A stretch of 64,000 bases of DNA from Prorocentrum cordatum (Eukaryota > Sar > Dinophyceae > Prorocentrales > Prorocentraceae): assembly GCA_963575745.1 (NCBI GenBank), contig CAUYUJ010020537.1:16001-80000 (forward strand), written 5' to 3'. This document shows positions 3,582-38,346 of the stretch, in pieces. Made by a program: the position numbers and the translations under genes. Position 1 is the stretch's first letter. Every line of letters begins with the position of its first letter. The notes below the pieces were generated by a model. That model did not search any database, had not been told where the DNA came from, and saw nothing but the letters and a program-made list of their open reading frames with translations.

Positions 3582-3628
<47 letters not shown>

Positions 3629-4470: not shown

Positions 4471-4479
4471 TATATACAT

Positions 4480-16052: not shown

Positions 16053-16317
16053 TTGAGTTTGAAGGGGCTGGAGAGCCCAGCCAACAGCTTCGCCTCAGGC
16101 GAAGCCAAGCTCCCACTCTGTTGTACCGTAGTAACGATAGGCCCAGTATGAGAGGAGATGCCATCTCAAGCAATAGGAAGATCCTTTTGGTATCGATAGC
16201 GATCGCGTGCCTCGCGGCGAGGCACAGTCAAATCTGGGCGGCCGGCCGCTCGAGCCAACGCGGCCGCGGGCGCGCGCTCGCTTCCACTCCTTGCGCCCCC
16301 CAGTTCGGTTTAGAGTC
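16053..16317 (-). repeat. Element 1 terminal repeat, 3' copy, with conserved hairpins
   Basis: Matches 33263-33522 with about 10 percent differences by eye. Three hairpins are conserved: 16087-16105, 16155-16167 and 16207-16225. In the second, stem GAGAT/ATCTC here is GGGAT/ATCCC in the other copy, a compensatory change. The minus-strand copy ends in TTCA or CTCA, compatible with an LTR end. A run of 17 G at 16318-16334 adjoins it, which is a C-tract in sense orientation and not a normal polypurine tract. Confidence 0.65.
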
Positions 16318-16462
16318 GGGGGGGGGGGGGGGGGCGAAGCGGGAGCCCGACGCCCCTATACAGCAGGCTCAGCAGCTGACCTACACAAGGACAGGAAAGG
16401 AAGCGGGCCCAAAGGAAGGTGGACCCGCCAGCAAGTTGCCTCGCATATGTTTGACATACTTA

Positions 16463-17120
16463 TCAGGCGGCGTCGGAACTTGATGTCTGGCCGGCACGAT
16501 ATGGAGTATGTCTCTGCAGGTCATGTTTGAAGGTCTGTATACCTCCCGGGACTTGTAGGAACATTTCTGTGCCGATGCCCCCCTTGGTGTGGCCATCCGC
16601 AGTCATATCGCGGGTATCGCACCGCTGAATGCTGTGCGCGATTCCACGCTCCATCATCTGTCGCATCCAACTGATGTGTCCTACAAGGGTGCGGCCAGTC
16701 GGCTTCTGCAAGGGTTTGCTTGCCAAGGACTTATACACAAACTCAGCATCGGTGATCAAAGTGACCTTGATGCTCAGGCCACCCAATTCAAGTATATCTT
16801 TCATCTGAGTGGGCGTGAGCGGCCCCGCGTGGAGCTCGCGCAGAGTCACAATCGTGGGATAACAGTCCTCCGATGCATGGGCCGTTGCTAGTGTCTCTGC
16901 TGGCTAGCTCGAGCGGACCTGCAAGCGGTGAGACTTGCAGTGCGCATCAATCAAGTGAACGACAGGCTTACCAGATGTGTTTCCACGTCGCAGTAGGCTT
17001 GCCCCGCGAGTACCATAGCCTTTGACGTCGTCGTCGGCGTCTCCACTCAGGCGTCGATCTCCTAAGTCGCTATGTAAGTCGACCTCGCTCGTGGGGTGCA
17101 TCGCCTGGTAGACGATTTTT
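16463..17120 (-). pseudogene. Element 1 RNase H
   Basis: RNase H of the reverse transcriptase, which removes RNA from the RNA-DNA hybrid. The sense reading shows EVDLHSDLGDRRLSG (first acidic residue), VVHLIDAHCKSHRLQVRSS, then one in-frame TAG at 16904-16906, then VTLITDAEFVYKSL and a tail with RDMTADGHTKGG, matching the copia-type C-terminal AD-TKG motif. The frame ends about 16463. Loss of function is likely from the stop codon. Confidence 0.75.
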
Positions 17121-18273
17121 TCGGGCGGGCTTGTAACTTTCTGGTGATCGCGTTCAATCGTCGCACTTGAATGTTGGTCGGTTCTTGGGCGCGCTGTAGA
17201 GATACAATATAAACCATTAACCACACCTGGGTAATCAGTGCGCATGCCAGCGTACACCTGAGACTGACGAACATGCCTGCCGCCATCTCGGTTGCTTGAA
17301 CGTCAGCGTCAGCGCCGGTTAGTTCGGGATGTTGTATAGGACAAAGCTGTTGAATAGATCCATCTTGATCCAAGGTAGCATTGCCGTCCTCGTCCTCAGT
17401 GTATCTCACAGCACAGTTAGTATATGTGTGCTTGTTGAGCCTACACTTACCGAAAATATCCTCAACGCAGCTGACATATTTTTCACTGGTGTCCTCAGTA
17501 CCAGCCATATGAATGTCATCAACATGCTTGGGAGTGAACAAGTGGCCGCTCGTCTCGAACTCCTCGTCGTAAGACGTGGGTCGGAGGCCAAATCCTCTAG
17601 TGGCTCTTCTGAGCTCAAGTGCGAAAGCCCGTGGAGCGCCCTTAGTTCCTGTGCCCGGTTTCAAGCACTGCAGGCAGTGCTTTGACTCGTCGTAGCTCTC
17701 GAGTCCTGGAAGAGCACGGAGCGTAGTGGCCGATCTAGGCGGCAAAGTAAAGCACACCACACGCTCCATGTCACCAGTAGCCTCAGCAAGTTCCTGATAG
17801 GTCAAACCCTTTCAGGAAGGCCATGTTGATGTCGAGGGAAGCAATGGTCTACTGCTTCTTGCACGCGGCCGTGCTAGCGAGTAACCTCTGGCTTGGCCTT
17901 CTTGCTGTTCCCGAACATGTTTCTACGCCGAAAGCTGCAAGGTCTATGAAGCCTCGGAGTACCAAGCGTAGTCGGATGGTACGTTCCATCTGGCCCTTTT
18001 CGTCCTTCACGAATTTCCATGTGCACACGTTTCTCGAAGTCATGATGTTCGACGCTGTGGCTATCTCCTGCATCTTAAAACATGCGTTGTCTCAGTGAAG
18101 AGGGCCTTCGACGCTTTAACGGGATTCGCCTGACTGCCAGCTCTAGCTAGGTGGTCGTCTTCCTTGACGACCACGGCTCGCTTTGCAACGGCGGTAACAT
18201 ATGCTCGCATAGTGGTTACCCAGTCGGCATCTAATATCATGTGTTGCTGCTCGGACAAGACTACCTTCGACAT
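17121..18273 (-). pseudogene. Element 1 reverse transcriptase
   Basis: RNA-dependent DNA polymerase. Sense order: KALFTETTHVL, then after a frameshift near 18065 SRNVCTWKFVKDEKGQ and IRLRLVLRGFIDL, a break near 17810-17850, TYQELAEATGDMERVVCFTLP, GTGTKGAPRAFALELRR (finger/palm motif), and the catalytic KHVDDIHMAG at about 17510, where VDD is the polymerase active site. The frame shifts again near 17115 into RNase H. At least three breaks make it nonfunctional as it stands. Confidence 0.8.
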
Positions 18274-18827
18274 TTCTGTCGTAAAGCATTATTCATCGCA
18301 TCGACCATTTTCGTCTGAGTCGAGTCCGTAGCTGTCGTCTTCGACCATGGTGCACAAGGGGGCGTAGTACGTCTCCTCGGCATCGGAGTCGTGAGTGCGT
18401 CCCCGCTTCGGCAGGTGCCCCCACTTCGGCAAGGGACCAGCGCGCTCTGATGCGGAACCATGCGTGTGGCTATGGTAAAGAGGTCCTCTCGTGGAGTTGC
18501 CTCCAACAGTTCTCTTTCCTCTTTCAGATCTGCGTACCACACCTCCATAACAAGCGACTCAATATCAGCTTCTGACGTAGAGGGCCGTCCGTCATCATGT
18601 GCTGGTTCGGCTTCTGGAGCTTCTCCTGCGGTTCCTTCCCGTGTCGGCGCATCAGCCAAGCCCGCAATTTTAAACGTGTCCTGATCGCAACCTGCTTGAG
18701 GTTTAGTGGACTTCAGGCATTGGTTGGTGCGTGAATGTGCCGATACAACTATATCATATATACATATATTCAGAGCAGTACCTTCTGCTTGATAAAATGG
18801 AATCCTGGATTCACGTCGTTGTCGCAA
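18274..18827 (-). CDS. Linker between element 1 integrase and RT
   Basis: Low-complexity acidic Ser/Thr/Ala-rich frame with no motif. It continues into the RT upstream helix (MSKVVLSEQQHMILD). Such linkers are normal between copia integrase and RT. Confidence 0.4.
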
Positions 18828-19124
18828 TTGACCAATGTGCAGCTGTCGGCATAAGTAACCGGACGTAGCTCATGGCTACTCTTGGCTAATCTGACTGAAA
18901 CTACATTCTCAATGCGAAAGAAGTTTATGTTAAGATATTGTCCGGCCAAATGTACCTTTGGGATAGACGACTTGCAGTCGTCATCTGAAGCGTATTTTTC
19001 TTGGTCGGCACATAGCTAAATTTCAAAGCAGGTCCCCGCTGATAGGCTGACATAGCCACATAGCCGCTGATAGGCTGGCTACGAATGTCAACGCTGTGCG
19101 TAGTGCAGTGTTGGCGGAGCCAAT
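18828..19124. other. No recognisable feature
   Basis: Interior of element 1 between the integrase C-terminus and the RT linker. AT-richer, no continuous frame. Probably decayed polyprotein linker. Confidence 0.4.
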
Positions 19125-20893
19125 CTATCGGGCTATGAGTGCTTCAATGTATAGCGAATGTCTTGCGTCGCCGTATTGTACTTGAGCATCTCGATTGCCT
19201 GATCGGATGATGACCTGACCCCTTTCGGGATCATTCCTTACGACTGGGAACGGGCCGTTCCAGCCTCCCCATTCATCCTTCGTGGTCGTAAGGCGACGGT
19301 AGTCGACCAAGTCCCCTACGTCATAATAGTGCTGACCGGTAATTCTCGTCTTAGTGCGTAATGCACGGCTGGTCTTAGCTACTGCCGTGGCCTGTGTGAT
19401 AGCTTCAATACATACCCTGCGTACCGTCTGTTCACGAGAATGATATGATGTTTCCGTCGGCTGCTCGTGGCCCAGAACAGGGAGGTCAGGGAGCATTGAT
19501 GGTTGCCGTCCAAATACAGCGCTGCATGGAGACACTCCGTTCTAAGAGAGTGAATGCGTTGGCGGCGAACAAGAAGAGGTATGTCTAACCTATTGAGTTC
19601 AGCCTCCATGGCGTGAAGTAAATGACGTAGGATGCCATTTCTGGCCTCATCGTTGTCGCGGGATGTCCACGCGCACGTATTCTAAGATCAGTGCCCTTTG
19701 CCTTGAGGACTGCTTTCGCGAAGTCGTTGTTAAGGGCACCTTCTCCATCGGAGTGAAATGCCTTGGCCAGTCCAAACTGCAACCGGCACTGCTGATATGC
19801 ATCCAAGATAGTGGTCATAGCTTTGTCTGGTACTTCAATCTTAATAGCATATCGTATACATCGACCGATCATGTGAAATATATTGCGTTCTTGATTGTAG
19901 AGCATCACGTTCCACTTCCTCACTGAAGTTACCGGGTAATGCAGTAGAGGGCATAACCGTGTGTCCAGGTTTGCTCCGAGCTCTACATTCTCGGCATGTG
20001 TCGCAGACACCCTCAATGAGGTTGAGTCTGACACTGTTCCGACCTACTTTGCTTAAGATGAGTCTCGTCTTAGGCTCCTTCGCGTGGAACCAGCGTAAGT
20101 GTAGCTTTCGCAACTCGCGTGTTACCACGCTGGGGGCAAGGCTTCGCAGGTTTTGTAAACTGATTTGTACATCGAACCGTGACCAGTCTGGTAGTCGTGG
20201 TCGTGCAGCAGGGTTCCCCGCTGGTGGTGGTGGAGGTGCGTCTCCACCTTGTTGTCGACCACGTCTTAGTCTAACCTTTGGTATTCGGAGATGGTCACCC
20301 GAACTACCAGCTCCACTCGAGGCAGGTTGCCCTGCAGAAGGCTCAGCAGCATGTCTTCCAACAGTAATGTCGCGACTGCTTGCGCCCGTGGTGGGCCCCG
20401 CTCTCGCGCCGGGCCTCGGTGCTCTCAGTCGCGTAAGTGATGGCGCTGCTGGCGCCTCGGGTGGTGGTGCTGCTGCTTCAGCAATATCTGGCAGTGCAGG
20501 TCCTGCTGCCGGCTCGGCGGGAACCGGCGGAATACGTCCATGGTTGTCGGGCAACTTCCAAAGCTTGGCAAATTTGCATTTGCCAGGTGTTAGTACATGT
20601 CCAGGTTTGTTCTTCCCGTAAATATTCTTGCAACTCGGGCGCTCCCAAAGGTAGTCCTCCTTATCGTACCATCTGCAGTGATTCGGATCTCTATCATGAG
20701 AGGGCGAATGCACGTTAACGTTATCCGCGCAAGCAGGACCACCAAGCCCCCCCAGGTTGTCGGGGGAGACCCGGGTCGTCCAAATCGTACCCCCTTGCGT
20801 TGGTGGCCAACGCGGTGGACGAATGCGGGTAGCCATGGAGAAAATCACGAGTAGTCTGAAAGAGATCGCGTGCGATCTGAACAGGTTCGACAA
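19125..20893 (-). pseudogene. Element 1 integrase
   Basis: DNA integrase of copia type. The N-terminal zinc-binding part reads LRKLHLRWFHAK and GVCDTCRECRARSK near 20100-19960. The core reads NIFHMIGRCIRYAIKI and FHSDGEGALNND (second catalytic Asp, near 19750). The segment expected to hold the catalytic Glu is disrupted by a frame change near 19640. The C-terminal domain is well kept: GDLVDYRRLTTTKDEWGGWN (about 19300-19240) and VQYGDARHSLYIEALI. Upstream is a Pro/Ala-rich linker with two hairpin motifs (20208, 20322). Broken by at least two frameshifts. Confidence 0.75.
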
Positions 20894-21528
20894 AGAGTGA
20901 CTTCATCTTTGATGTATATTGTGCAGCCATGGACAATGCCACATTGCATGCCCAAGCGTGATGGTGATGGCCACTGCATCGTTTCTGTTCAAAAAGGGTG
21001 AATAACAGACGATGGTTGGCCGTGATCTCGGTCGGTTTTCGCGTCAGTATCCAATGGGAATCACATAAGCCAGTAGTGTATTGGTCCATGTTCACCTTGC
21101 AAGTGCCCTTGCTTTTGACCGACGTAGTCCATGGTGGTACCTGACCCACCCAAGTCCCAACTGGTTGTTCTCTTGGGTAAAATCGTCGAATCTAATTCTG
21201 GCGTACAGCCGCTTTCCCGCATAACTTGATATGTGGTAGATCTTCTTCATGATGCCCATGCCAGGTGTCGTAGTTTACCTGTGCATCGAAGTAGGAAGGC
21301 AAGCCAGTTGTTCTGCAGCGTGGGCCATCTCATGACAACCTTGACGAAATAAACGTCTAAATAGTGCATCGCTGCATCTTGGGCCTCCCTGTTTCCAAGA
21401 TCAACAAAAGTACGTTTGTCGAGGTTTCCCCCTGAAGACAGACCTCGGCTGAATGCCAGCTGGGAGATGCCTCCAAGTCCCCCGCATAGTTCTAACACAT
21501 CTACCTTGTTGTGTCGACCGTAGCACAA
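20721..21528 (-). pseudogene. C5-DNA-methyltransferase-like domain in element 1
   Basis: Reads VDVLELCGGLGGISQLA (motif I, cofactor loop, near 21480), then KRTFVDLGNREAQ (motif II region). A frameshift near 21335 puts the next block, GPRCRTTGLPSYFD, in another phase; its Cys would correspond to the catalytic Cys of motif IV, with PRC in place of the usual PC. It is followed by DTWHGHHEEDLPHIK, a TAG at 21192-21194, and QPVGTWVGQVPPW plus a Cys/His-containing block to about 20900. Retroelement-encoded cytosine methyltransferases are known in dinoflagellates. Here the domain precedes integrase. The frameshift and stop make this copy inactive. An alternative is an unrelated Rossmann methyltransferase. 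Confidence 0.6.
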
Positions 21529-21762
21529 GGTGGGGATTATGGAGAATACATCTGCGTAAGATTCAGCAGGGTGCCCCGCAGGTAGGGCGATGAAGGCCTC
21601 CTCTCCGTCGTCGCTATCCGTGTCGGAGTCCAGGGGTACGTCTGTGTAGTGCGCACTACACCCGAGTCGTTTCAGGTCGTCTCCACAGTCGTCGTTGCCT
21701 TATTCGACTACTTTGGGTATATTGCGTGGTTTGATGCCAGCTTCTTTGTCTGCTTTATGTTT

Positions 21763-22420
21763 TTATGTTTGCTTAATTCTGGCATACGTTGGTAGTGCTG
21801 TCTGTTGTTCTGTCACAGGTGAGCTGAGTGTCGGAAATTCGGGAATAGAGGGTAGCACGCGGCCGCGCTCAATCGAAGGGGGAGGGGGGCGATCGTCATC
21901 GATGATCGCCACTCGCCTTGAGCGTGGTCGTGAACTGCCATTTCCCAAGACAGTCGGCTCCGGCTGCTCCCAGTACAGTCGAGTACGGATGTTGCTGACA
22001 CCATGGGGTAATGGTGCGTTGTAGTTGTGCCCGGTCGGCTTGTCCTGGATCTTGATGTCCTGGATGATCGTGTTGCCGTCCAGGTGCATCGTCACCCGTC
22101 TCACAACATGGCCCAGCACTTGTGTGATTTCTTTGTGCACTATGTCAATCCATGCGATCAATCAACATCGTGGTCATGATCGCTAGTGTCTTGTTCCGCC
22201 ATTCGGCCTTCTGAGCGCGTTGTCCACACCAGTCTAGAATATGCTCAGTAGGTTCTGCAGGTTCCCCTGCTATATTGCATGCGCATCGCCGTAGATTGGC
22301 GGGGATGCGCGCGCGCGTAGTCGCCACTTGCAGACATGATCCGCTGGGCAACGTGTTAGCGCGGTCGTACTTGAGGCCGAAGTGGCAGAAACGCATGCGC
22401 ATGACCTGTAAGTCAATATC
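21763..22420 (-). pseudogene. Element 1 polyprotein domain, C-terminal part
   Basis: Two overlapping frames. The first (22402-22145) reads MRFCHFGLKYDRANTLPSG and EHILDWCGQRAQKAEWRNK, an ordered domain that continues the interrupted domain at 24117-24500 across the 22421-24116 insertion. The second (22161-21763) is a linker with HLDGNTIIQDIKIQDK. The domain sits directly upstream of the methyltransferase-like block, and I know no function for it. A hairpin motif lies at 22257-22270. Confidence 0.55.
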
Positions 22421-24116
22421 CGCCGACCCCCTGGGTCATCGGCGTGCGAGATGCTTCCCCCTCCCCATGCCCTTCCCCGGGGAACCCGGTCCGGTCGATT
22501 TGGAGGGGGGGGGGGGGCGCCCACCACGAGCGACTCACGACGCTCTTCCGGGCCCACAAAGGCCAAAATACGGGCCCAAAAAGCCCCGAGAGGCCTCCCA
22601 GACGTTCCAAGAGGCCCCCAGACGCCCCAAGAGACCGCCTAGACGCCCTAAGAAGCGCCCAAGAGGCCCCAAGAGGCTTCCAAGACGCCCCACGAGGGCT
22701 CCAAGACGCCCGAAGAGACCTCCAAGACGCCCCAAGAGACCTCCAAGAGGCCCCCGAGGAGCGCCCCAAGAGGCCAAAATCGTTGATTTTCATTTGTATT
22801 TTTCTATGTTTTCGTCATTTTCGCCTTTTCTGCCTTCCGACGCTCCAAGACAGCCCAAGGAGCTCCCAAGACTGCTCCAAGACGGCACAAGAGGCCTCCT
22901 CGACGCCCCCAAGACGGCCCAAGAGAGCCCCCAGACGGCCCAAGAGCCGCCCACGGCGGCCCAAGAGAGCCCCCAGACGGCCCAAGAGCCGCCCAAGACG
23001 GCCCAAGAACCTCCCGGAGACGGGCCCAAGAGGGGCTCCAGAGAGAGACCACGCACCGGAAAACCCAGCGTTACGTCCCAAGAGGCCCCCAGGAGGCCCC
23101 TAGAAGCCCCAAAGAGGCCCCAAGAACCCCCCAAGAGGCCCCCAAGACGTTCCAAGAGGCGCCCAAGAAGCCACAAAGAGGTCCCACAACGGCCCCCAAG
23201 AGCCTTCGAAACTGCTCCAAGAGGCCCGCAAGAAGCCCCCCCGCAAGATCCCAACGGACATCCCTGAACACACCGGTTTTTCGAATCGCGCCCAGCCCCA
23301 TAACCCGGAGCCTCATCTCAGTGTCCCCGTCCTCCTCTTCCTCCTCCTCCTCCTGCACTTCCTCCTCGTTCCCCTCCTCCTCTTCCTGCCCCGCTTCAGC
23401 TCATCCTCACCGATGCTTCTCCCCCCCCATTTTCCGCCTCACCCCCCATCCTCCTCGTCCCGTCCTCCCTTTCTGCCCAGTACGCGCAAACGATTGGGCA
23501 TCATTTGCACGTGCACTTTAGGGTGCCCTCCTTTGCGTCGCGCGGGACATTGTGAGGGTCGGGGAACGCCGACTTTGGTAGTCCTCTCTTGCACGCGCCG
23601 CTGCACTGATAAGCCTGGCAACTGCGCGCTGTGAACCCGAGTTCCTCGCAGCTTCTGCACGCCAGTTTAGCTCCTTTCGCCGCTCGATGATGTTCCACTT
23701 GCTTCTGTTTCAAATGTGTCGTGTCCGAGAACGCGCCTTTGCGCGCCGCGCGCGTCAACTTCGCGTCCGCCTCTGCTTTCCGCTTGCGATTCTCTGCATC
23801 CGCCTTCTCGTTCCGCCCGCCCTTCTCGTTGCGGGCGCGCGCCCTGCAAAGCCTCTCCCCCGCATCTTTCGAGTCGCACTGGTTCGCCGCCACTTCCGCC
23901 TCCGTCTTCAAGAAATTCTTGCACTTCGCGCACCGAATCTGGACTTTCTCCTGAATCTGAGAGGCCTCTGAACCACAACTCAGGCACGGTGGCGGGATGG
24001 GCCGACTACTGGGAGGAGGAGCAAAGACGACGACGATAGGAATGCGGGGGATAAAGTCGGGCCATAACGCCCCCAAGACGTCCAAGATTGCCTCCAAAAA
24101 AAACAAGGGGTCGGCG
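22421..24116. mobile_element. 1.7-kb insertion with 10-bp inverted ends
   Basis: The left end CGCCGACCCC (22421-22430) and the right end GGGGTCGGCG (24107-24116) are perfect inverted repeats. The interval splits one polyprotein domain: readable protein runs up to the right border and resumes at the left border in sense order. It contains CCCCAAGAGGCC-type C-rich tandem repeats (about 22560-22770 and 22840-23260), a (TCC)n tract near 23320-23360, and a zinc-finger frame. I see no obvious target duplication. Confidence 0.6.
23501..24085 (-). CDS. Cysteine-rich zinc-finger protein carried by the insertion
   Basis: The frame is continuous with the interrupted polyprotein at its N-terminus, but the ordered part starts near 23990. 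It has CLSCGSEAS, an IRCAKCKNFLKTEAE pair, a Lys/Arg/Glu/Ala-rich helical middle (about 23870-23700), then CRSCEELGFTARS and CSGACKRGLPKSAFPDPH, ending with CTCK. The paired C-x2-C and KSAF segments resemble Stc1-type zinc ribbons, which in fungi link RNAi to chromatin, but this is weak. The start is undefined. The codon bias is very GC-rich compared with the surrounding element. Confidence 0.45.
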   Translation of the reverse strand: MDVLGALWPDFIPRIPIVVVFAPPPSSRPIPPPCLSCGSEASQIQEKVQIRCAKCKNFLKTEAEVAANQCDSKDAGERLCRARARNEKGGRNEKADAENRKRKAEADAKLTRAARKGAFSDTTHLKQKQVEHHRAAKGAKLACRSCEELGFTARSCQAYQCSGACKRGLPKSAFPDPHNVPRDAKEGTLKCTCK

Positions 24117-24625
24117 GTGTGGCGTAAGCCTAAAGAATCTTCAACAGCATTTCGTATGGGACCTTGTTTCCAGAAACAGCCTGGTGGCCCCACAAGTACA
24201 ATGGTCATGCGTAGAGCCCGAGCCTTGGACATCAGATTTTGGATACGCTGGTAGCGCGGCCCTGCCCCCTTGTTAGGCAGCCTCACATGCCAGTCAGCAG
24301 GTGTTGCTACCCACGACAGTTGATAATCGCCCGATAGTAAGGCACCCAAATACTGTGTACCAGTGGAGGTCATTACCTCCGTATGTGTAATACGATCGCA
24401 CATGTATCCACGAACTCGGAGTTCAGCGCAAGCTGTCCGTATATCCTCAATGACAAATGCACGAGAATGATAATGATGCGACAATCCTTCTTTTTCTGCA
24501 GCGGCCACACAGCCGGGTCCACTGCTGTTCGCGGTAGCCGCGCAGCCAGGCTTGCCGCGGCCCCTGGCACGAACAGCCGGCGCCTGGGAAAAGAATGCAG
24601 GTTCCCCCGCGTCTGCCGACAGCAC
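24117..24625 (-). pseudogene. Element 1 polyprotein domain, N-terminal part
   Basis: Reads FVIEDIRTACAELRVRGY, LLSGDYQLSWVATPADWHV, RIQNLMSKARALRMTIVLVG and PPGCFWKQGPIRNAVEDSL, an alpha/beta domain. It is cut at 24116 by the insertion and resumes at 22420. The first 60 codons (before about 24480) are low-complexity and may be linker; a hairpin motif is at 24597-24610. I do not know its biochemical role. Confidence 0.55.
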
Positions 24626-24682
24626 CTGAATGTTCGGCCTGTCTGAGCAAGCGCGAGTGGCCGTGGCACGCGCCTGCCCCCG

Positions 24683-26186
24683 TCACTCGCATGGCGATGG
24701 GGGCACCGAAATACCAGTGCCGCGTTGCGCTGCAGAGCCGCTGCTCGAAGTTAAAATATCAAACTTCTCAGCGGCACCATCCACTTCCGCAGGTGTCCCT
24801 GCCTGTGCATCGGGAGGCGTCCAGTTCGTATCCTCCTCGTGGATGGCCTGATATATCTCCGCCTGCAAACTGCGGAGGGCGAAGTCCTTGTCGGCCGAGG
24901 TAGGGGTAGTCCCATAGGCCATATTTCCATGAGGCCATGTCTTCAAGGCGTTATTCACCAAAGTCTGGATCGTGAAAGCGAACGTCTCGTCATTGATGGA
25001 GAAACGAATGCCCTTGTATCCTGTGACATCATGTATGCGTGGGCATCATGCACAGCAAGTGTCCCTGTGATTGGCTCCTGATCGGATACTTCCTTGACGA
25101 ATAATGAAGCTTCTTCGCGCTGAGGTATGACCGCGATAGTAAACGACATCGACCCTTGATCCTCAGTAGCCATCTCGTACTCGTCAGCTTTGAGCGCCAG
25201 ATTCCCGCAGGGCGTCTTCATCAGGCCGAGTACCCTGGCACCTTTTCCGAATAGAACCTTGTACATATCCGCGCCAGGGGTGATCATCTTGTCGCGCCCC
25301 TGCTCAAGGATCAGGATGGCCCCCGCGTTGGACATGCTCCTCAGACCCAAGATGGCAGGGAGGTTCTCCCCAGAGCCCTCAGCCACATTTGCTGCGTACG
25401 TATCAGGTCTCGGCGCAGCAGGTTGCCCTGCGGGATCTCCCCTTTCCTTGCGTGCAATCTTGCAGTGCGAGGATTTGTCGCACATCGCGGCGCCATGTCC
25501 CACTCCTGACACGTATAAATAGCGTGTCCGTGGGGGCGTGATACCTGCTGAAAGGTCTGTGCCGTCTTTAATCTAATAACATTGATATTACTGCCAATAT
25601 ACAGAAGAATAATCAAAATACCATTGACCATCGTTCCACTGTTAGCTGCCGAGGCTGGCTCATGGCAATCACCAAATAATCCAGGAACTTCAGACACGGT
25701 CGTACCACGCAAGCTTTCGAGGCGCCTCCGCTCCAACGCCCACTCATTTCTCGACAAAGATGTGAACGCATTCATATACCCACGAAGCTCTTCTTCTGTA
25801 AAAGGGACTCGTTTCAAACATCCAGGCTGTATGACCTTCGTCATGCTTCTGTGATTGTGGAAAAAATTCAGAAATAGTGCCCCCTTTTCCGCGCGCATGC
25901 TCGTCCGACCATCAGTATGTATCGTAAGTACCGTGTGCAGCATGTCGCGTTCGGATATCCCACTATTGCCACTGCGCGTGCTTACTGGGCTCTCCGCCCT
26001 GCGCTGACTGCGTCGACGGAGATCTCGCCCATATGGCATATATGAGTTCGAAGACTGAGGCCATTGAGCGCCCCTGTCGGTCGCCCCTTCCATGCGCCTC
26101 AACCACGCGTCGTTCACAGGTACCGACGGTGGAGCCGCTCTAGCAAGTGTCCCTGCGTTGTTGCTGGTTTCGGCCACCGATGGCAT
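24683..26186 (-). pseudogene. Element 1 extra ORF of unknown function
   Basis: Three overlapping frames form one decayed gene. 26186-25341 holds an N-terminal Ser/Arg-rich part, HTVLTIHTDGRTSMRAEKG, an ordered helical part, and one hydrophobic segment GTMVNGILIILLYIGSNINV near 25590 that could be a membrane helix. 25512-24955 reads MYKVLFGKGARVLGLMKTP and SMSFTIAVIPQREEASLFV. After a frameshift near 25020, 24961-24683 continues with ALRSLQAEIYQAIHEED. No motif is recognised. Hairpin motifs lie at 24789, 25055, 25418 and 26143. Confidence 0.45.
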
Positions 26187-26307
26187 AGGCGAGCCTATAG
26201 CAGGTGCCCCTGCGAGCGTGGTCGTCTCCGTTACTAGCCCCGCGTTGGCTAGCGATGCAGCTGGCCCCGCTGGTGCCGTCGTCGAGACACGGCCGCGGTG
26301 CCCGTCA

Positions 26308-27759
26308 TCATGGCCGCAATGCGGTTGAGCTCTTCACAGAGATCCCTAAGCTCGTTCGCCCCTCGGAGATGTCTTCATGACGATTGAGCGACTCTTGATC
26401 TCCAGCAAGGGCGCAGTGGAACTCGGCAGTAATGAGGCCAACGCCCCTGCATATAGCGCAGGGGGCCTCATTTGCGGAACCTTCCCTGTTCCCAGCCAAC
26501 TGTCTATTCACATGGGCGTGCACCACTCGATCACAACATTGTGCGTGCAATATTTGGCAGCACTGGAGGCGCCAGACCTTGTCGCGATTCATGAACAGGT
26601 CCAAGCATATGGCACACTTACTGAAGCCACCGTCACTGATGATGGGCGGTGTTGCCGATGGCCTGATACGCGTCTGACGCTCCAGGGTGGATTCACCAGC
26701 CTCGAACCGAATAGGTGATACCGTCGGTAGCTGCGTCGATGCAACCATGGCTGGACTGCTCGCAGGTGCCACTGCTACATTGTGCTTAGCAGGTTGCCCC
26801 GCGCGGCTCAGCATTCTGTTGGCCTGACGATTCTGATTTCGGCGCTGGCGTGTAGCCTGCAAAGCCAAATTGGCTTGCTGCGCCTCGTGTATGGCTAGGA
26901 TCTCAGGGCGCAACTCTCCCATGGTCGGCGACAGCACCAGGCCAGGAGCCTGTTGCTGCACATCTTGATCCATGGGGGGAGCCGGATACCCATAGTGTGG
27001 TATCTGCCCTGGCACGCCTGATGCATGCCCTGAGCCGCGTGTCAACCGCGACTGGTAGAAGTCGTCGGCCGTCGCCCGAACATGTGGATTTTCGGGCTGT
27101 GTTCCCACCCGAGGAATGCCACTCACCTGGGCATGATCGTCAGGATAAAGCGGATGATCCATTGGCGCTGCTGTAGGACGATCAACAAACGTTGGATCGT
27201 AAGTCGGATGACTGAAGAATGCTGGCACATAGCCGAACCGAGTGGGATTGTCCGACGAAGGATTTGGATCCATAACATACTCCCACGGCGGCGTCCAGTT
27301 GGCATTAGGGAGGTCAATACCATCCCTCCGCATGCTCTGAGCGGCCTCGCGCAACTGCCGATACATCCACTCTTGCTGACCAACTGAACTTCTCTGTATG
27401 GCGTATTGGTCAGGAATAGCAGGTTGCCCCGCATGTGGACGTGGCGATGCAAATGGCGATGTCGCCTGTAAAGCCTGATAGAGCTGCGGATCTATCCGAA
27501 TGCTTTGGGGCCTCGCCTGCAGGCTGTTGTTGCTTCCAGCACTCTGTGGAGTACCAAATGGTGCAATAGCTCTGCTCATATGAACAAATGAGGCAGGTTG
27601 CCCTGCAGGTACTGGCAGTTGGTGTACATGAGCACGCCACGGATCGTTGACGTACAAAGTACCAGAGGGCGTAATACCACTTGGTGTAATACCTGTCACA
27701 TCGGCGCTCTGAGCCTGTATCCATGATCCATCAGATCCCCCCTGCAGGTGCCCCCGCAT
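26308..27759 (-). CDS. RING-finger protein encoded within element 1
   Basis: A 483-codon uninterrupted frame. The first 330 residues are Pro/Gln/Ala-rich and probably disordered, with a short ordered part (QEWMYRQLREAAQSMRRDG) and a Gln/Arg-rich helix (EILAIHEAQQANLALQATRQ). The C-terminal part has KCAICLDLF, LQCCQILHAQCC and APCAICR, a C-x2-C ... C-x-H/H-x2-C ... C-x2-C arrangement of a RING finger, with an unusually long loop before the last pair. RING proteins are mainly E3 ubiquitin ligases. Four AGQPA-type hairpins fall inside the frame. A RING cargo in a copia element is unusual. The frame is intact, unlike its neighbours. Confidence 0.65.
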   Translation of the reverse strand: MRGHLQGGSDGSWIQAQSADVTGITPSGITPSGTLYVNDPWRAHVHQLPVPAGQPASFVHMSRAIAPFGTPQSAGSNNSLQARPQSIRIDPQLYQALQATSPFASPRPHAGQPAIPDQYAIQRSSVGQQEWMYRQLREAAQSMRRDGIDLPNANWTPPWEYVMDPNPSSDNPTRFGYVPAFFSHPTYDPTFVDRPTAAPMDHPLYPDDHAQVSGIPRVGTQPENPHVRATADDFYQSRLTRGSGHASGVPGQIPHYGYPAPPMDQDVQQQAPGLVLSPTMGELRPEILAIHEAQQANLALQATRQRRNQNRQANRMLSRAGQPAKHNVAVAPASSPAMVASTQLPTVSPIRFEAGESTLERQTRIRPSATPPIISDGGFSKCAICLDLFMNRDKVWRLQCCQILHAQCCDRVVHAHVNRQLAGNREGSANEAPCAICRGVGLITAEFHCALAGDQESLNRHEDISEGRTSLGISVKSSTALRP

Positions 27760-28273
27760 GATACGCGTCCATCATGAGCACACGTGAGAACGCGCCCTCC
27801 TGAACAGGAGGCGGATCGGGACACTTCAGGTTGTAGGGGGCATCTGGAAACAATTTTCAAAGAAGATGCATCAATGCGGATCTCGTGCATATCATCAATT
27901 TTACAACTCGGGAACGCCTGATTGTCGCCCCGCAAAAATTAAGGATTTCTCCATACCTGTCCAACACGATTATACTGACAAGAATGGCTGGGCAGGATCC
28001 CGATCAACTGGACGACGAGCGCCAGATCGGAATGTTGTCCCGAGCCGAGATCTTCAGGCTGGCCATGATCAAGACCTGCGAATCGACACGTAGGCCGGAC
28101 TGAATCCAGTGGTCACCAGGAAGGTATGGGAAACCATGTGCAAACTGTCTGCCCCTCTTCTTGGTTTGTGCGCGGCATGAAAATCCAATACTAAGAATAC
28201 TCGGTATATTCTCCATTGAGTTCCATGAATAAAATAACAGGGTGCCCCGGGAGCCGACGGGGCCGTAATTCTT
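27760..28273. other. No recognisable feature
   Basis: Interior of element 1 between two ORFs. Short frames only. A weak hairpin-like motif lies near 28238. Confidence 0.4.
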
Positions 28274-29584
28274 TCATATATATAGTGACTCAGGGCACTG
28301 AATACCAGGGCTGCCGTGTCCGTTAGTTGGACGGATGAAGTATATGTCGTAAGTCATGCCGGAGTACTTCATCTTCTTGATATGCAGCCTATTCTTTTTC
28401 ATTCCATATGTAAATATCACACCAATAAGTTCCAAGGCAGCATCTGCCTGGTACGCCCAGTGCTGGTCCTTGAGCACGTGGCGTACCGTGCCCAAGTGCT
28501 TAGGGTGATGTATATCGTACCCTTCTGCAGGCCATGCGTTGAGTAGCTGTAATAAATCCCCCCGCCCGCCGTACTCATCATGCGTCGTCATTTCACGAAT
28601 GAATCTGTCCAACAAATGGCCATTACGAAACGGCTTGTGACGGAAGGCAATTGTCAACCACTCAGAAACCTGACGTTGATCGTCGTACTTGAACTTTGGC
28701 CTGCGAACATTCTCCGACCTGAGGATGTCCTCCAAATAGACCCACCTTTCAGAGTCAAACGTGAGTGCTGGGCGTTTCCGCAGGATGTTGCGCACTGTTT
28801 GGTGCGCATGCGCACCTTGATCAGCAAGGACAGCAGCCCCCATGACATTGCACTGCACCACTATGCATTGTTCAGATCCATCGCCAATCCGCGAATGATA
28901 CGCTGGATTGATCTTCGCGCGGTTGGAAGTGCGCATCCTACCCCAGAACTCTTTGCATTCCGGTGGCACCTCCAGCGCAGGGGCAGGTTGCGCCGCTGAG
29001 CTGCGAGCAGGTTGCCCCGCTGAACTCCGAGCAGGCTGCCGCGCAGAACGTGGGGCAGCCTTTGGCGCTGCAGTCGCTGCTGCGATCGCTGCCGATGCAG
29101 CGGCGCCAACAACTCCTCTGGGCGTCCTTGGAGTTCCTTGCGGGGTGCTGAAATCGAAGTCCTGGTGCTTCTTCTCCTTGGTGTTGTAGGACTCGGCAGC
29201 CTCATCCCTGGGCGCTGCTCCTGGCACCGCTGGCGCGGTAGCAAGGAGCTACCCAGCGCGTTGCGCGGAGGAAGCACCCCCTGTCCTTCCTGCCAAATTA
29301 GGCACCCATCCTGCCCTGTGCGTCCGACCTGGTGCAGGGCCGCGACGTGGCACAAGCTCTTTTGGAGTAGGCGCACTGGTACCCTGAAATGTGGCTGCTG
29401 CGGCGGCCACTGCTGATCCTCTGGAAAGTAGTCGATCAGTCGGTTGCCCCGCATGTCGCTGCTGCATACTGCCCCCAGGGTTAGGATCACCTGGGCTCTT
29501 CCTCTTCTTCTTCTTCTTGAGCATAGGAAGATCAGGGCCAAGAGATTGGCTTGATGATTCAGAAGACCAAAGAAGATCGACCAT
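28274..29584 (-). pseudogene. Element 1 extra ORF with weak Tpt1/KptA N-lobe likeness
   Basis: One frame (29584-28274) interrupted by a single TAG at 29249-29251. The N-terminal half is Lys-, Ala- and Pro-rich and holds hairpin-derived A-x-Q-P-A repeats (28983, 29007, 29031). The C-terminal 200 residues are ordered: TVRNILRKRPALTFDSERWV-YLEDIL resembles the winged-helix start of Tpt1/KptA proteins (LRHxPxxxxLxxDxxGWVxVxDLL). The HGT motif of the catalytic lobe is not present, so the resemblance is suggestive only. It could also be an unrelated helical domain. Confidence 0.4.
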
Positions 29585-29667
29585 CTCTGGCTACGGTTTG
29601 GGAGCTGCCTTTGCCGTAGCTCCTGCCGGCGTCCCAGATACATATCGAATAGGACTTCGGTCAGGAC

Positions 29668-30079
29668 TCAGATCGATACCACCTGGCTTCCTGAGGGCCA
29701 TGTTCTCAATGGGTACCTTGTGTCCATGTGTACATGTGCAGCTAAGTACTTATCGGTGCTTCGTCTGTCGACGATGCGTGTCCTTCTCCAGCCAATAGAC
29801 TGACCGCGATTAACAATCTGCCTCCCAGTAGATAGATCCATATATATATATATTGTGACAACGTCCTCGGGATCAATCGGAGTATCCGTATCACACGTAA
29901 TGTCTGCGATGCCCGAGTCGCTTGGCCCACCGCCGTCGGGGGCAGCGTCCGCGGGGCCAACTTCCTCAGCCATCTCGCCATCTTCATCTTCACCAGCTTC
30001 CTGCTGGCTTTCTTCTTCTGGCTTATGATCAGCAGGTTGCCCCGCGTGCCACTCGCGATTGAACCGCGCCAGATAAAAT

Positions 30080-30173
<94 letters not shown>

Positions 30174-30300
30174 CTGAGCCATCTCTTCGCGGGCGGCGGG
30201 GTCGCAATCCTTTCCCGTCAGCCGCTCGCGATATGGCGTTTTGCTGGGGCCAGCGCAGCGACCCCGACCATCTCCACGAGACCAAGCGCACAGAGTTCAT
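29668..30300 (-). pseudogene. Open frame across a poly-lysine tract
   Basis: The frame is open because a 92-T run reads as about 31 lysines. After it come an acidic segment (HAGQPADHKPEEESQQE, EDEDGEMAEEVGPADAAPD) and a short ordered tail. It belongs to the element 1 region between gag and the extra ORFs. Whether it was ever one protein is doubtful. Confidence 0.3.
30082..30173 (+). repeat. 92-nt T run (poly-A in element 1 sense)
   Basis: Uninterrupted T from 30082 to 30173. On the sense strand it is poly(A) and could be the tail of an inserted retroposed sequence. Confidence 0.85.
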
Positions 30301-30634
30301 TGGAAATCGGGGCTTCTTGACGGGCGCCTCATGGGGCAGCCGAGCCTGTGATCAGCATAACTGGGGCATGTACAGCAAACGCCTCTGTGGTGCTCTCGAT
30401 CCTCGGTGATGGCCCTTTTGAGATCGCGCTTGACCATCTTGTCCTGCGATACGGTCTGCCCCCCCCCCCCCATTTAGGCGAATGGCATTGCCTTCATCAT
30501 CTCGTTTGCACTGACGAAGGGAATACCAGTGCCGGATATGATGCTCGCTCGCACCCATTCCCAACCAGCATTCCACCTGTCGGCGGGCATCTGCTGACGA
30601 GTCGACCCAGCTTCAGTGTGGCCTTTCAAACGCG

Positions 30635-32992
30635 TTACTTCACCTTCTGAATATTCCCCTCCCCGATGTCGGTCATCTCGAGGCGGGTTTCCCCGCGGGC
30701 GGTCCTTCCGCGGGAGAGAGCTGGCGCCCTTGTCGCCCGCCGCGGCGGGCCCCTCGCGGCGCCCGCATCAGGGGGATGAGGGCGCTGACCGCCAATCGAA
30801 CGAGCACCGCTAGAGCGGGCTCGCGCACGATCCGGCGAGGGATTGGGAGCTCGACCGCGACGCATCTCGCGGCCATCGTCTCCCGTTTCGTCCTCCTCGC
30901 CAATTGGGGAGAGACTTGGGTCGTCATGATATCCCTGCCTCATCAAGGGTGGGCGGCTCGGCGATCGCCTCGGGCTGCTGGCGGGCCGACCTGGCGCAAC
31001 AGAAGTGCACTGAAATTCTTCATTGTGCCCGAGCTCATATTGAATACGATCAGATAAATCACCAGCGTCGCGCGGGTTTCCCCGCAGTGGATCACCATCG
31101 ATGAATTCCGCGTTTGTCGGATTTCCAATCGCCCGATGATAGAGCATTGCATGGATTTCCTCCTCTGTTGCAGGGGTGGTAGAATCTGAGTCCGCAGGTG
31201 CCCCCGCCGCGCCGAAGTCACCTTCGACGGGCACGCGGAAGGTCTCGACAAACTCAATATCAGCAGGTTGCCCCGCGATGGGTGCACCCAGCCACTCTGC
31301 CAAGTCGACGTCGTCGCGGCAAGTGAACACCTCCTCGAACAGCTCGTCGGCGCAACTCTCGTGGGCCACGATGGCACTTAGATACCCGGCAGCCATGAAA
31401 TGAACAATCGTGGCTGAGCCGCCGGCAGGGTCGGCAAGCAGCGACCCCCAATCAACATGCTGTATGTCGGAGTCCGTTTGAGTCAGATGTATTGACGGAC
31501 CCTTGCCTCTTCTATCACCTTGGGGACACTCGCGTCGGAAATGCTGTGTGCTGTGACATATGTCGCACTCCATGGTCTTGCCGTTGGCATCATGTGGGTT
31601 TCCTCGTCGTCATTTACCTTTACCTGATGTATGCCTGCCGTTTCTGCCAGTACCTAAAGACATTTCCTCATGCTGCGGTCCAGTGAGAGACGCTAGGAAT
31701 GCTAGTATGCCTCTACCATGTAGTCGCAGACGCATACCTTTGCCTTTACTTCGGCCCTTGCCTTTTCCATTAATTGACCGTCGTGCAAGGCGTATGGCCC
31801 TTCGGACTGGTATCTTCATGAACCTCCGCCAACGACGCTTGTGTTTTTGATAACACAGAAAAAACATTGAGCTCGGTGCTCCCCCGCATGGTATGTCGGC
31901 ACATCAGAGTAATCCAAGGAAATAGTTTCATCATCGGGAGACGTATCCGCATCGGTACCGGAGTCGAAGTCGGACTCGGCGGGTTGCCCCGCTGAGCCCA
32001 TTAGGGCCATAGCTTGCGCGAGGGAAGCCGCGTCGGGCGGCCCCCCAGATCAGGGCCCGGGGCCTTGCGACCCCGAAGCCGCTCCACCATTCTGAGCCAG
32101 CGGTGTAGTGGTCTCACTTGGCGGTGTATCGTCGTTCCAGAAGTTGTTAGCAGGTTGCGGTGCGTTGGCCTCTGCGTGGGAAGTCTCGCATCGATGACCG
32201 TGGCTAAAGATCCCACCAATATTGCCAGGGCCCCCCTCAGCTATGTGAGCATATGACCTCACACGTTCAAGTAGAACGTCAAATTGTGGTTGGTCCCTCG
32301 GCATGTGGTGGCTCAGAGGCTGCAAGAGTTGTTGCGCACGCGACGCCCCCATTCCAAGAGCTCTGAATATAATTACTGCTTATATTTGGAAGTTGGGGAT
32401 TTTGGACCCGGCGGTTTCAGTTTCGTAGCGGGCTACTTCGAACTGTGCTAACGTCTGGACGATACGTTTACCCGCATGAACTCGAAAGTCAATGGGAGCC
32501 GTGCCAGAGTTGAGTTGGCGCTCCTCTTCCAGGTTCTCGAACTTCGTACTTAAGAGGAACATAATGTAGGTGACGCCGTCAGTGTGGCGACCGCCTATAT
32601 TGACGCCAAAATTGATGACTACTGGGGGGACTCTCATGGTTATGGTCCGCGCGAGCCCTCCCAAACCGCGCTGCAGTGCGGCGGCCTGCTGGGAGGGCGT
32701 CCGTCTTGCCTGTGGTCACAGTGATCCAGGCATGTACTTCGCGGACGAACTCGCGAAATGGTACTTGACCGGCAAGATCCCAATGGAGGCCAGTCGTTCT
32801 AGTGTCGTCTCCGCACCGCATATGTCCTACCGCACAACCAAGAGCGACCCATACGAGCCCAAAGATAGTAACCCCAATCCAATGGCCTCGTAGGTCGTAG
32901 TCGGATGTAGTCGGTGGGGACTTATGCTTTGTCGTCGTATGTTTGCGCGGGGTCGGAAGCGGCAGTAAATCGTACCGCATGTTTCCATGCAT
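30635..32992 (-). pseudogene. Element 1 gag polyprotein
   Basis: Structural capsid/nucleocapsid precursor in several frames. N-terminal: PFREFVREVHAWITVTTG (about 32740), GLARTITMRVPPVVINFGVN, FENLEEERQLNSG, IVQTLAQFEVARYETE, then QFDVLLERVRSYAHIAEGG. Central: YQKHKRRWRRFMKIPVRRA and a GKGKGRSKGKG basic linker (31850-31610). A TGA right after a second GKGK is in frame with the CCHC zinc knuckle CDICHSTQHFRREC (C-x2-C-x4-H-x4-C) near 31560. The downstream acidic and Arg/Pro-rich part ends at 30635. This layout is typical of dinoflagellate copia gag. Decayed by frameshifts and the TGA. Confidence 0.75.
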
Positions 32993-33262
32993 TATGTATT
33001 CGAAGAAATTTCCACTTGGAGTAGGTGGGTGGACGTCAGGAGTGTAATAGCGCAGGGATGTAGGACGTGGGTACTAAGAGGCCTCCGCTTGAACAGAGGT
33101 ATCGCTGCAAGTTTCCTTGCGGTACTGCGTAGTTATATACACTCCTCCGCGCAATCCCACTGCACCCTGATGTTCCACCATGTCCGTCGTCTACCAGATA
33201 GTGCCGTGGATGGTGAGGAGTAGAGCCTGAACTGACCACCATAGGCCAGCTCCGCTACCACT

Positions 33263-33522
33263 TTTGAGGGGGGTGGAAGGCCCAACCAACAGCTTCGCTT
33301 CAGGCGAAGCCAAGCTCCCACTCTGTTGTACCGTAGCAACGATAGTCCCAGTATGAGAAGGGATGCCATCCCAAGCAATAGGGAGATCTTTTTGGTCTCG
33401 ATAGCGATTGTGTGCCTCGCGGTGAGGCACAGTCACAACTGGGCGGCCGGCCGCTTGAGCCAACGCGGCCGCGGGCGCACGCTCGTTTCCACTCCTTACG
33501 TCCCCCAGCTCGCTTTAGAGTC
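33263..33522 (-). repeat. Element 1 terminal repeat, 5' copy, with conserved hairpins
   Basis: Counterpart of 16053-16317, with hairpins at 33292-33310, 33360-33372 and 33412-33430. On the minus strand the repeat is followed after a few bases by TGGTAGCGGAGC, which resembles the copia primer-binding site TGGTATCAGAGC. This supports a 5' LTR reading. Borders are uncertain. Confidence 0.6.
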
Positions 33523-35067
33523 CTTGGACGCCCGTGTCGAAGCTTTTCGAGCGGGGCGCGGGCCACGCAAGATGCGAAGGACGGAGCGAGGAGGCAAGGA
33601 CGCAAGGGCACCGTGGCGATGGAGCTCACCAGTCAACACACACACACACATATACTGGGCTAACGCGCGCCCTGAGGATCACCGGCACCGAGCGGCAAGC
33701 CGCTCGTCGCCACGGCTGGGTCCGCCTCAGAGCGTGCTTGTGGTCGCAGCTCCCCCCAGGAATGATCCAGGGGTCGACTCTTCGAGGCCCGAGCCCCAGA
33801 CATCCAACGCTTTGAGTCCATTGAGGCCGTATGTTGGTCCCCACCTCCGCTGCCTGGAGCCCCTTTGATTGGCACCAGGGCTATCACATAGCGAATTTGG
33901 ACGACGAGCTGGCCCCCAAGATGGGGGGGACGCGTCCTGGCCTCTAGCTGCGAGCTCATCCGCGACCTCAACGCCCGCCCTGCATCCATTGTCGCCGCTG
34001 TCGAAAGATCGAGGACCAGATTGCTGGGTACATACTCATTGTGCCTCCACGTGTGGCCCCATAGCAACGGCTGAAATCCTCTGAAAGCTGTGGTCAGGAC
34101 AGTCCAAGATGTCCAGCTGGCTGCGGCACGTCATGCCACCGTGCCAGCCCAACTCTCTGGGCGGCGGCTGCTAGAGGAGCGCACAAGAAGCCGTAATGTG
34201 CGACACCTCGTGCCCGAGGCCTGGGGGAGTAGGAAAATGTCACACACACACACACATTTCTCCTTCGTGTCGGTGTGTCTCTCCACGGTTACGTCGTCGT
34301 CTTCCTCCCTTCCTCCTCTTCCGTCCTGTTTTCTCGAGGCATTGGGGGCGTCTTGCCTCGCTGGGCCATCTTGGGACCCCTTTGCGGCCGTCTTGGGCTG
34401 TCTTGCGGGTCTTTTGGCCCCCCCCCCGTCTTGGAGGCCTCCTGGGCCAGCTTGGGGCCCATTGGAACCATCTGAATCGTGAAAGCGTCTTGGGGCGTCC
34501 AGAGCTGACGGAAGCCCGAACAGGTGTCAGAGTGCAAATCTTCTAAACACAGCGGTGCAATCAACGATATCGCGTTACTCGGGCCCCACTCGTGGTCCTC
34601 GTGGAGCCCACGTGCGCTGTCTCGGGGCCTCTTGCGCCATATTGGGGCCATCTCGGGTTGTGTTGGGGCCATCCTGGCACGGGCCGCGCTGGACTCATCT
34701 CAGACCATGTTGGCGGCCCTGGGCCGTCCAGGAAGCCACCATATTTGGAATCCAGGATGCTTCGGAAAGCCCCAGAGAGGCGCAGGCAGGTGTGAAGAGA
34801 GGGTGGCCAAGAAAGAAGATTGCAGAAGCCCTACCAGACAGCACTGGGCACTCTGCCATGCCTCAGCGTGCCAGGGGCCACCGTGGCGCATCTCCGGAGG
34901 CACTTCTTCACGTGCTGCTCGCGTCCGCCTGCGTGCGCAAAGCCCCCGCAGCCAGAGATCATTCGGAACTAGCTCGGCCGCGGACCCGTGAGCCAGCGGC
35001 CAGGGGGGAAACTGGCCCCGGCAAGGCGGGGGTCGAATCACCCAGGGCCCGCAGACCGAGAGACCAG
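33523..35067. other. Noncoding region with CTTGGGGGCC-type repeats
   Basis: Holds short (CA)n tracts (about 33638, 34243) and, at about 34340-34480 and 34600-34760, the reverse-complement form of the CCCCAAGAGGCC 11-12-mer family. No gene supported. Confidence 0.5.
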
Positions 35068-35205
35068 GGCTGAACCTAAACGGTGTTGTTCGTTTTCGTT
35101 TTGTTTTCGTTTTCTCTCGTTTTGTCTTCAATCCGCCTTTACCGCAAAACGAAGTCGAACCGAAAACGGCCCACGAAAACGCCAAAACACTGTTTAGGTA
35201 CAGCC
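35068..35205. mobile_element. Intact MITE, 138 bp
   Basis: Left end GGCTGAACCTAAACGGTGTT and right end AACACTGTTTAGGTACAGCC are inverted repeats with two mismatches. The interior is rich in CGTTTT/AAAACG. It represents the uninterrupted form of the MITE that is split at 38278-38346 and 56384-56466 by element 2: its sequence runs ttcaatccgc straight through the point where element 2 is inserted in the other copy. Confidence 0.85.
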
Positions 35206-38200: not shown

Positions 38201-38277
38201 ATGCTTCCTCAAGCCACTCGAAGAAGCTGGCTGGAAGGAGGAACGGTCCGCTGGAGGCAGGGGGAGGAGGAAGAGGA
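35206..38277. other. GC-rich noncoding region
   Basis: Includes very GC-rich CGCCGC/GCGGCG sequence (about 36040-36320) and CGT/GTC-rich trinucleotide sequence (about 37230-37640). Long frames exist on both strands, but their Ala/Arg/Ser composition follows the base composition. A CCCGAAACGGCCCAGG-type short repeat run is near 37980-38020. No gene supported. Confidence 0.4.
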
Positions 38278-38346
38278 CAAGGCTGAACCTAAACGGTGTT
38301 TGTCTGTTTCGTTGTGCCTTCGTGTTCCATCGTTTTGTCTTCAATC
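38278..38346 (+). mobile_element. Left half of the MITE split by element 2
   Basis: Starts CAAGGCTGAACCTAAAC and ends with CAATC (38342-38346), the target duplication of element 2. It is preceded by GAGGA (38273-38277), which recurs at 56467-56471 after the right half and is the target duplication of the MITE itself. Confidence 0.9.

Follow-up and report, generated by a model that had tools for sequence, protein, structure and literature searches.

Why does one 14-nucleotide sequence recur along the coding regions of a retrotransposon, and is it kept there as peptide, as DNA, or as RNA? This question is raised by a 64,000-nucleotide stretch of Prorocentrum cordatum DNA (contig CAUYUJ010020537.1, positions 16,001 to 80,000), hereafter the window, to which all hairpin counts refer unless stated otherwise. 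Self-comparison of the window revealed two elements of the long terminal repeat (LTR) type, both on the minus strand, and the 14-mers belong to the first of them, element 1, an LTR retrotransposon of 17.5 kb. We conclude with high confidence that the 14-mers all represent a single RNA hairpin, repeated in the sense RNA of element 1. The explanation that we favor overall, to which we give about an even chance, is that a selected, protein-recognized hairpin is dispersed over the element 1 transcript, its coding region included.

The exact pattern GC[AG]GG-N4-CC[CT]GC was found 19 times in the 64 kb, always within 20208-31992, whereas 100 shuffles gave 0.82 on average and never more than 3, which bears out, at the scale of the window, the density that a preliminary description of this DNA had pointed to. 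No exact copy was present in the 46.5 kb of the window outside element 1, element 2 included, and within this window a host genome-wide feature was rejected on that ground. The same description had spoken of about 24 copies between 20208 and 32163; the exact pattern falls short of this number, which is reached only if near-copies are counted, and the range proved too narrow, as paired members also lie at 33107, 32977, 18411, and 16431. A relaxed family, GC-RN-G-GNNA-C-NY-GC plus a few diverged members, comprises about 27 copies in element 1 and runs from 33107 to 16431, that is, from end to end of the element:

33107..33120, minus strand, GCAAG-GAAA-CTTGC, pair 4 compensated; in the leader just inside the 5' LTR
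32977..32990, minus strand, GCATG-GAAA-CATGC, pair 4 compensated
31979..31992, minus strand, GCGGG-GCAA-CCCGC
31263..31276, minus strand, GCGGG-GCAA-CCTGC, read as AGQPA
31194..31207, minus strand, GCGGG-GGCA-CCTGC, read as AGAPA
31072..31085, minus strand, GCGGG-GAAA-CCCGC, off-phase RGNPR
30683..30696, minus strand, GCGGG-GAAA-CCCGC, off-phase RGETR; beyond the reach of both gag relatives
30032..30045, minus strand, GCGGG-GCAA-CCTGC
29007..29020, minus strand, GCGGG-GCAA-CCTGC, within a 24-nt tandem triplicate
28983..28996, minus strand, GCGGC-GCAA-CCTGC, decayed neighbor of the 29007 copy
27744..27757, minus strand, GCGGG-GGCA-CCTGC, off-phase
27593..27606, minus strand, GCAGG-GCAA-CCTGC, site common to the relative P0001
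27419..27432, minus strand, GCGGG-GCAA-CCTGC; P0001 has AGHPA some residues away
26789..26802, minus strand, GCGGG-GCAA-CCTGC; P0001 has MRGNLP at the same place
26200..26213, minus strand, GCAGG-GGCA-CCTGC
26143..26156, minus strand, GCAGG-GACA-CTTGC, pair 4 G.U
25418..25431, minus strand, GCAGG-GCAA-CCTGC, site common to P0001 (AGQPAAP...AEGSGENLP)
24789..24802, minus strand, GCAGG-GACA-CCTGC
24597..24610, minus strand, GCGGG-GGAA-CCTGC
22257..22270, minus strand, GCAGG-GGAA-CCTGC, one mismatch to 16S helix 45
21566..21579, minus strand, GCGGG-GCAC-CCTGC, read as AGHPA
21099..21112, minus strand, GCAAG-GGCA-CTTGC, pair 4 compensated
20322..20335, minus strand, GCAGG-GCAA-CCTGC
20208..20221, minus strand, GCGGG-GAAC-CCTGC
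20117..20130, minus strand, GCGTG-GTAA-CACGC, pair 4 compensated; inside the integrase region
18411..18424, minus strand, GTGGG-GGCA-CCTGC, pair 2 U.G
16431..16444, minus strand, GCGAG-GCAA-CTTGC, pair 4 compensated; just upstream of the 3' LTR

Only the middle hairpin of the 24-nt tandem triplicate (28983-29044, minus strand) is intact. As the preliminary description had noticed, most loops are GNRA in the sense RNA: this holds for 13 of the 19 exact copies (GCAA 9, GAAA 2, GGAA 2), four more being GNNA (GGCA 3, GACA 1) and two of other sequence (GCAC, GAAC). When any 5-bp stem with a GNNA loop was counted, G.U pairs being allowed, and compared with shuffles, the sense strand of element 1 held 40 such hairpins versus 8.4 expected and the antisense strand 4 versus 8.0, while the two strands of element 2 held 7 versus 6.5 and 9 versus 9.9. 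A covariance model was built from the 27 copies, so that their high scores follow by construction; the members reached at least 18.7 bits, all on the element 1 sense strand, and no other match in the window exceeded 13.8 bits. No Rfam family, those of rRNA included, matched the window at its gathering score. In viral contigs, the 14-mer was found in at least 120 stretches; among those listed, 118 had one copy of GCRGGGNNACCYGC and 2 had two, and this occurrence is background.

Pairs 1, 2, and 5 of the stem and the first and last bases of the loop are nearly fixed (at pair 2, 26 of 27 copies have C-G), while pairs 3 and 4 differ among copies without loss of pairing; this pattern would be expected of a hairpin recognized by a protein and points to recognition, not mere stability. 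At the middle pair (pair 3), the 19 exact copies have G.U in 10, A-U in 6, G-C in 3, and A.C in none; these are the pair types reported before, and the presence of G.U together with the absence of A.C points to the sense RNA. Pairing was further assessed by searching for GC..GG..AC..GC, in which the outer two and the closing pairs and the loop ends are fixed and the two inner pairs are free. All 23 matches on the element 1 sense strand were paired at both inner positions, among them six of six nonconsensus matches (letter frequencies alone give 0.14 per site), whereas in a control of 1.1 Mb of viral DNA (the 120 stretches listed) 21 of 122 were paired (Fisher 5e-5 for six of six). The other strand of element 1 had no match, and elsewhere in the window there were four further matches, of which one was paired. 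A scan that allowed up to two stem mismatches and ignored pairing gave, on the element 1 sense strand, 17 copies without mismatch, 5 with one, and 9 with two. Five of these nine double mismatches were opposite each other and paired, compared with 1 of 20 on the other strand and in the rest of the window (Fisher 0.005; 1 of 17 outside element 1 alone) and with a simulated neutral rate of 0.063, which amounts to an excess of compensatory changes. All five compensations fall on pair 4 (A-U three, U-A two; 33107, 32977, 21099, 20117, and 16431). They are seen within one element copy, across its hairpins, and since the copies may share ancestry, probabilities that assume independence overstate the case. 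In a 45-nt context, 13 of 14 tested copies form the hairpin, while 31263 prefers another fold.

As the family is spread from the leader to the 3' LTR and exact copies are absent from element 2, its reader is probably tied to element 1, whose recognizable parts are listed below (RT, reverse transcriptase; ORF, open reading frame):

33263..33522, minus strand, 5' LTR; the LTR pair is 90% identical
30638..31609, minus strand, gag-like ORF with a CCHC zinc knuckle (CDICHSTQHFRREC) and hairpins in three phases; relatives P0002 and P0003
26308..27759, minus strand, ORF with a RING-like finger (below the Pfam cut-off) and several hairpins; relative P0001
19128..20902, minus strand, integrase region, decayed and in three frames; weak Pfam rve match (E=0.21, 19588-20043)
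16466..18091, minus strand, RT and RNase H pieces, decayed, copia-like by eye; open segments without a Pfam hit
16058..16317, minus strand, 3' LTR, 90% identical over 260 bp to 33263-33522

On the minus strand, the order is thus gag with its CCHC knuckle, further ORFs, integrase pieces, and RT/RNase H pieces, and the paired LTRs enclose gag, integrase, and RT in one orientation, the last two being assigned by eye. For the enzyme and gag domains of this decayed and fragmented copy, Pfam gave only the rve match and a weak zf-CCHC_2 match on the gag-like ORF (both E=0.21); the motifs RLVLRGF, HVDDIHM, and DTRDMTADGHTKG are those that we take to belong to RT and RNase H. Judging from integrase and RT motifs recognized by eye, element 1 appears to be a copia-like LTR retrotransposon, and the copy in the window is dead and decaying.

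These features led us to a narrower proposal, which we rate at somewhat less than even: the 14-mer is a multi-copy recognition hairpin with packaging or assembly as its candidate function, and its likeliest reader is the zinc-knuckle Gag of element 1. Gag, with its CCHC knuckle, would bind many hairpin copies at once, and the RNA of about 17 kb would thereby be selected, condensed, and packaged into particles. Selection acting in the sense RNA would keep the copies, and the dominance of one reading phase, AGxPA, might arise because that reading is harmless in linkers. Among the three options put forward in the preliminary description, a repeated packaging signal fits best, though it is unproven. 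More tentatively, we suggest that a family of LTR retrotransposons in a marine eukaryote may use virus-style dispersed packaging, with more than 20 sequence-specific GNNA hairpins running through its genes and kept against codon drift. It is just as tentative that the unusually long RNA would be recognized along its whole length, not by one 5' psi signal, and that hairpins were re-made with compensation in the enzyme gene.

Passages of one source (PMC6281560) describe dispersed packaging signals in MS2, picornaviruses, and the hepatitis B virus pregenome, and element 1 resembles these in having many short stem-loops along a genomic RNA with a common recognition motif. Unlike those viruses, element 1 is an LTR retrotransposon, and capsid contact is here only proposed. 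A further single-stranded RNA virus with dispersed packaging signals is satellite tobacco necrosis virus (STNV), and the element 1 hairpins are presumably more uniform than the viral signals. Dispersed packaging signals are the best working analogy. In our view, the case for such signals in small RNA viruses has depended on degenerate motifs that are difficult to distinguish from noise, whereas the present hairpin is near-invariant, strand-specific, and compensated, so that no weak consensus is needed to establish it; should it bind Gag, dispersed genome selection would be extended to LTR retrotransposons, with a clean test system. Ty1, the best-studied copia-type element, is like element 1 an LTR retrotransposon whose Gag has to package the element's own RNA, and passages of a paper on it (PMC8396678) assign packaging to a 5' region with a pseudoknot, describe Gag as binding RNA with low specificity, and mention no dispersed repeated hairpin. 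No account of such repeated hairpins in a retrotransposon was found among the top matches of literature searches in open-access PMC.

Relatives of element 1 are known as proteins, from which nucleotide conservation was inferred; none with DNA was obtained from viral contigs (scanned with the queries A1, A2, and five single ORFs, four from element 1 and one from element 2) or from genome contigs (scanned with A2). The gag relatives P0002 (70% identity) and P0003 (59%) belong to a EukProt data set under the label Pyramimonas sp., a green algal genus. In the order window, P0002, P0003, site 31263 reads IAGQPA, IAGQPA, and IAGQRA; site 31194 reads AGAPA, AGAPA, and AGTPA; and the off-phase site 31072 reads LRGNPR, LRGSPR, and LRGNPR. 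Four of the six readings in the relatives are compatible with the hairpin family. P0001 (42% identity) contains six AG.PA versus 0.07 in shuffles, plus one off-phase MRGNLP. Sites 27593 and 25418 are common to it and the window; at 26789 both have the motif, in different phases, if the P0001 DNA holds it; and P0001 94 (AGHPA) lies near window 27419, the homology of the site being undecided. Unshared sites are 183, 431, and 543 in P0001 and 26200 and 26143 in the window. Of these, 183 and 431 align to the window without a gap, in poorly conserved stretches, which is unlike a simple insertion. The coexistence of shared and unshared sites in P0001-P0003 supports the view that some hairpin sites may be old while others turn over, and this pattern appears to fit sites that are old and under selection better than a mini-element of recent mobility.

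Several observations weigh against a selected hairpin read by Gag. (i) Outside element 1, the minus strand of 33523-38342 has 8 GNNA hairpins versus 2.9 expected (shuffle maximum 7); their sequences are unrelated to the family, and two of them are the tandem GCTGCGGCAGCGGC. A paired GC..GG..AC..GC match also lies on the plus strand of element 2. (ii) The 3' end of element 1 (16318-20000) holds 2 of the 27 copies, an unevenness that is not significant (Kolmogorov-Smirnov p=0.24). (iii) Three of the five single-mismatch copies are broken (two are paired), as are four of the nine doubles, which we read as decay of a dead element copy. (iv) The 27-copy alignment (A3), in which 99.3% of cells are paired, was hand-picked and is biased, since it left out seven broken near-copies (32150, 29439, 26762, 26257, 25055, 20825, and 29031) plus weaker hits. 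It kept one broken copy, 28983, whose C-C is the only unpaired cell; 5 cells are double-sided and 15 are wobbles, of which pair 3 has 13 and pairs 2 and 4 have one each, and none of 500 shuffles matched its covariation score. The GC..GG..AC..GC test and the mismatch scan are less biased than this alignment. (v) Most of the 45-nt stretches do not fold better than their shuffled versions (z -1.9 to 0.7). (vi) Two of the six gag readings imply a change: with AGQRA the stem would be broken, and with RGSPR either the loop or the stem would differ. (vii) The identity of Gag comes from one CCHC motif read by eye (Pfam E=0.21), and in the consulted passages on Ty1 the primary sites of Gag in vitro are the 5' pseudoknot and not dispersed hairpins (PMC8396678).

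The main rival to Gag is a cellular reader, that is, the same conserved hairpin being read by a factor of RNA decay, export, translation, or modification. All of the structural evidence applies equally to it, and one copy offers a lead: 13 of 14 bases agree between 22257 and the hairpin that we take to be helix 45 of Escherichia coli 16S rRNA, and the two have the 5-bp stem and the GGAA loop in common. Helix 45 of small-subunit rRNA is the substrate of the KsgA/Dim1 methylases. However, the likeness was noticed after the fact and only 22257 comes so close; the commonest loop of the family is GCAA, not GGAA, and the nearly constant C-G second pair also differs from helix 45. A cellular reader should, in addition, mark other RNAs, and no exact copy occurs in element 2 or anywhere else in the window outside element 1. 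We regard a cellular reader as unlikely, though worth keeping in mind.

Still less probable is a mobile palindromic mini-element, a functionless 14-mer copied around element 1, for example by template switching during reverse transcription. Many of the 14-mers are identical or nearly so, carrier sites differ between P0001 and the window, and there is the local tandem triplicate. Compared across 26 copies (28983 was left out), however, the flanks share only a weak bias of one to two bases within 12 bases on either side; the P0001-only sites 183 and 431 align without a gap, though they are poorly conserved there; the three gag sites have been retained in relatives that are 70% and 59% identical; compensatory changes are unexpected of neutral copies; and the element 2 and remaining window sequences lack exact copies. 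Because of the weak flank bias and the persistent gag sites, the mini-element of the preliminary description is unsupported as a current behavior, while the copies may have originated by mobility. Bacterial REP and RPE sequences are likewise short palindromes in many copies, those of RPE occurring within genes as well; by comparison, the element 1 unit has 14 nt, is confined within the window to one retroelement, is sense-oriented, has a GNNA loop, and gives no indication of mobility. The remaining option of that description, tetraloop receptors, was rejected: the 11-nt receptor has the halves CCUAAG and UAUGG, which gave no exact match in either order within 60 nt in element 1 sense, and GAAA forms only 2 of the 19 loops.

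A peptide signal AGxPA, acting as a linker or polyprotein cleavage site, with the DNA uniformity being coincidental, is very improbable. Of the 28 copies examined, 17 are read as AGxPA in their longest open frame, a count that agrees with the dozen or more noted earlier, and an acidic residue frequently comes next (by eye); phase 2 accounts for 7 copies and phase 1 for 4, although the longest frame need not be coding, and at 25418 P0001 supports a shorter AGQPA frame. However, AG.PA occurs 11 times in seven long ORFs and is encoded every time by the hairpin codons GC[AG] GGG NNN CC[CT] GC, for which the chance at element 1 codon use is 0.066 each and 1e-13 for 11 of 11, and AG.PA with other synonymous codons was absent both from these ORFs and from all six frames of the window. 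The off-phase copies at 27744, 30683, and 31072 are real, one of them persisting in relatives, and none of the five compensated copies is read as AGxPA. A peptide motif was rejected on the codon restriction, and the AGxPA peptide is a by-product of the hairpin; together with the compensatory changes and the wobble-only asymmetry, this upholds the earlier argument for a nucleic-acid signal. Least credible of all is a repeated target of a dimeric DNA-binding protein in an insulator-like cluster, such as the Su(Hw) sites of Drosophila gypsy: the 14-mer is nearly palindromic and compensation would also keep a palindrome, but one with R at position 3 predicts G.U and A.C equally, the split of 10 to 0 among the exact copies, on which a DNA palindrome was rejected, has a probability of 0.5^10=0.001 if copies are independent, and GC..GG..AC..GC occurs 23 times on the element 1 sense strand and never on the other.

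Element 1 also holds perfect 5-bp stems of other sequence with GNRA loops, at 31213, 20569, 18492, and 18268 (minus strand). With the family masked, there are four of these on the sense strand versus 0.7 expected and one versus 0.6 on the other, and two or three of the four sit in the hairpin-poor 3' part. Since GNRA-loop stems of 4 bp exceed expectation on either strand (7 versus 2.5 and 7 versus 1.6), the perfect 5-bp stems cannot clearly be assigned to the system. A run of 92 A on the element 1 sense strand (30082-30173, mid-element) adjoins a hairpin, and low-complexity tracts of the Pro/Arg type are alike at 22405-23267, within element 1, and at 5850-6381.

The window as a whole is eukaryotic in character, with retroelement ORFs, the A run, and low-complexity repeats, and no tRNA was found in it. 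Element 2 (38343-56385, minus strand) has long open ORFs, including one with a CCCH finger at 51938-54277, and a sub-cutoff match to RNA 2'-phosphotransferase at 42226-43254 (E=4e-4); its LTRs are as follows:

38343-38546 and 56182-56385, minus strand, element 2 LTRs, 92.6% identical

At 2070-4480 there are three units of 660-870 bp, 95-96% identical, two direct and one inverted, and the window ends at 62127-64000 in a dense tandem repeat with a strong GC skew of -0.54. An ORF at 12085-13335 (minus strand) has a clear match of the AAA_11 helicase type (E=3e-22).

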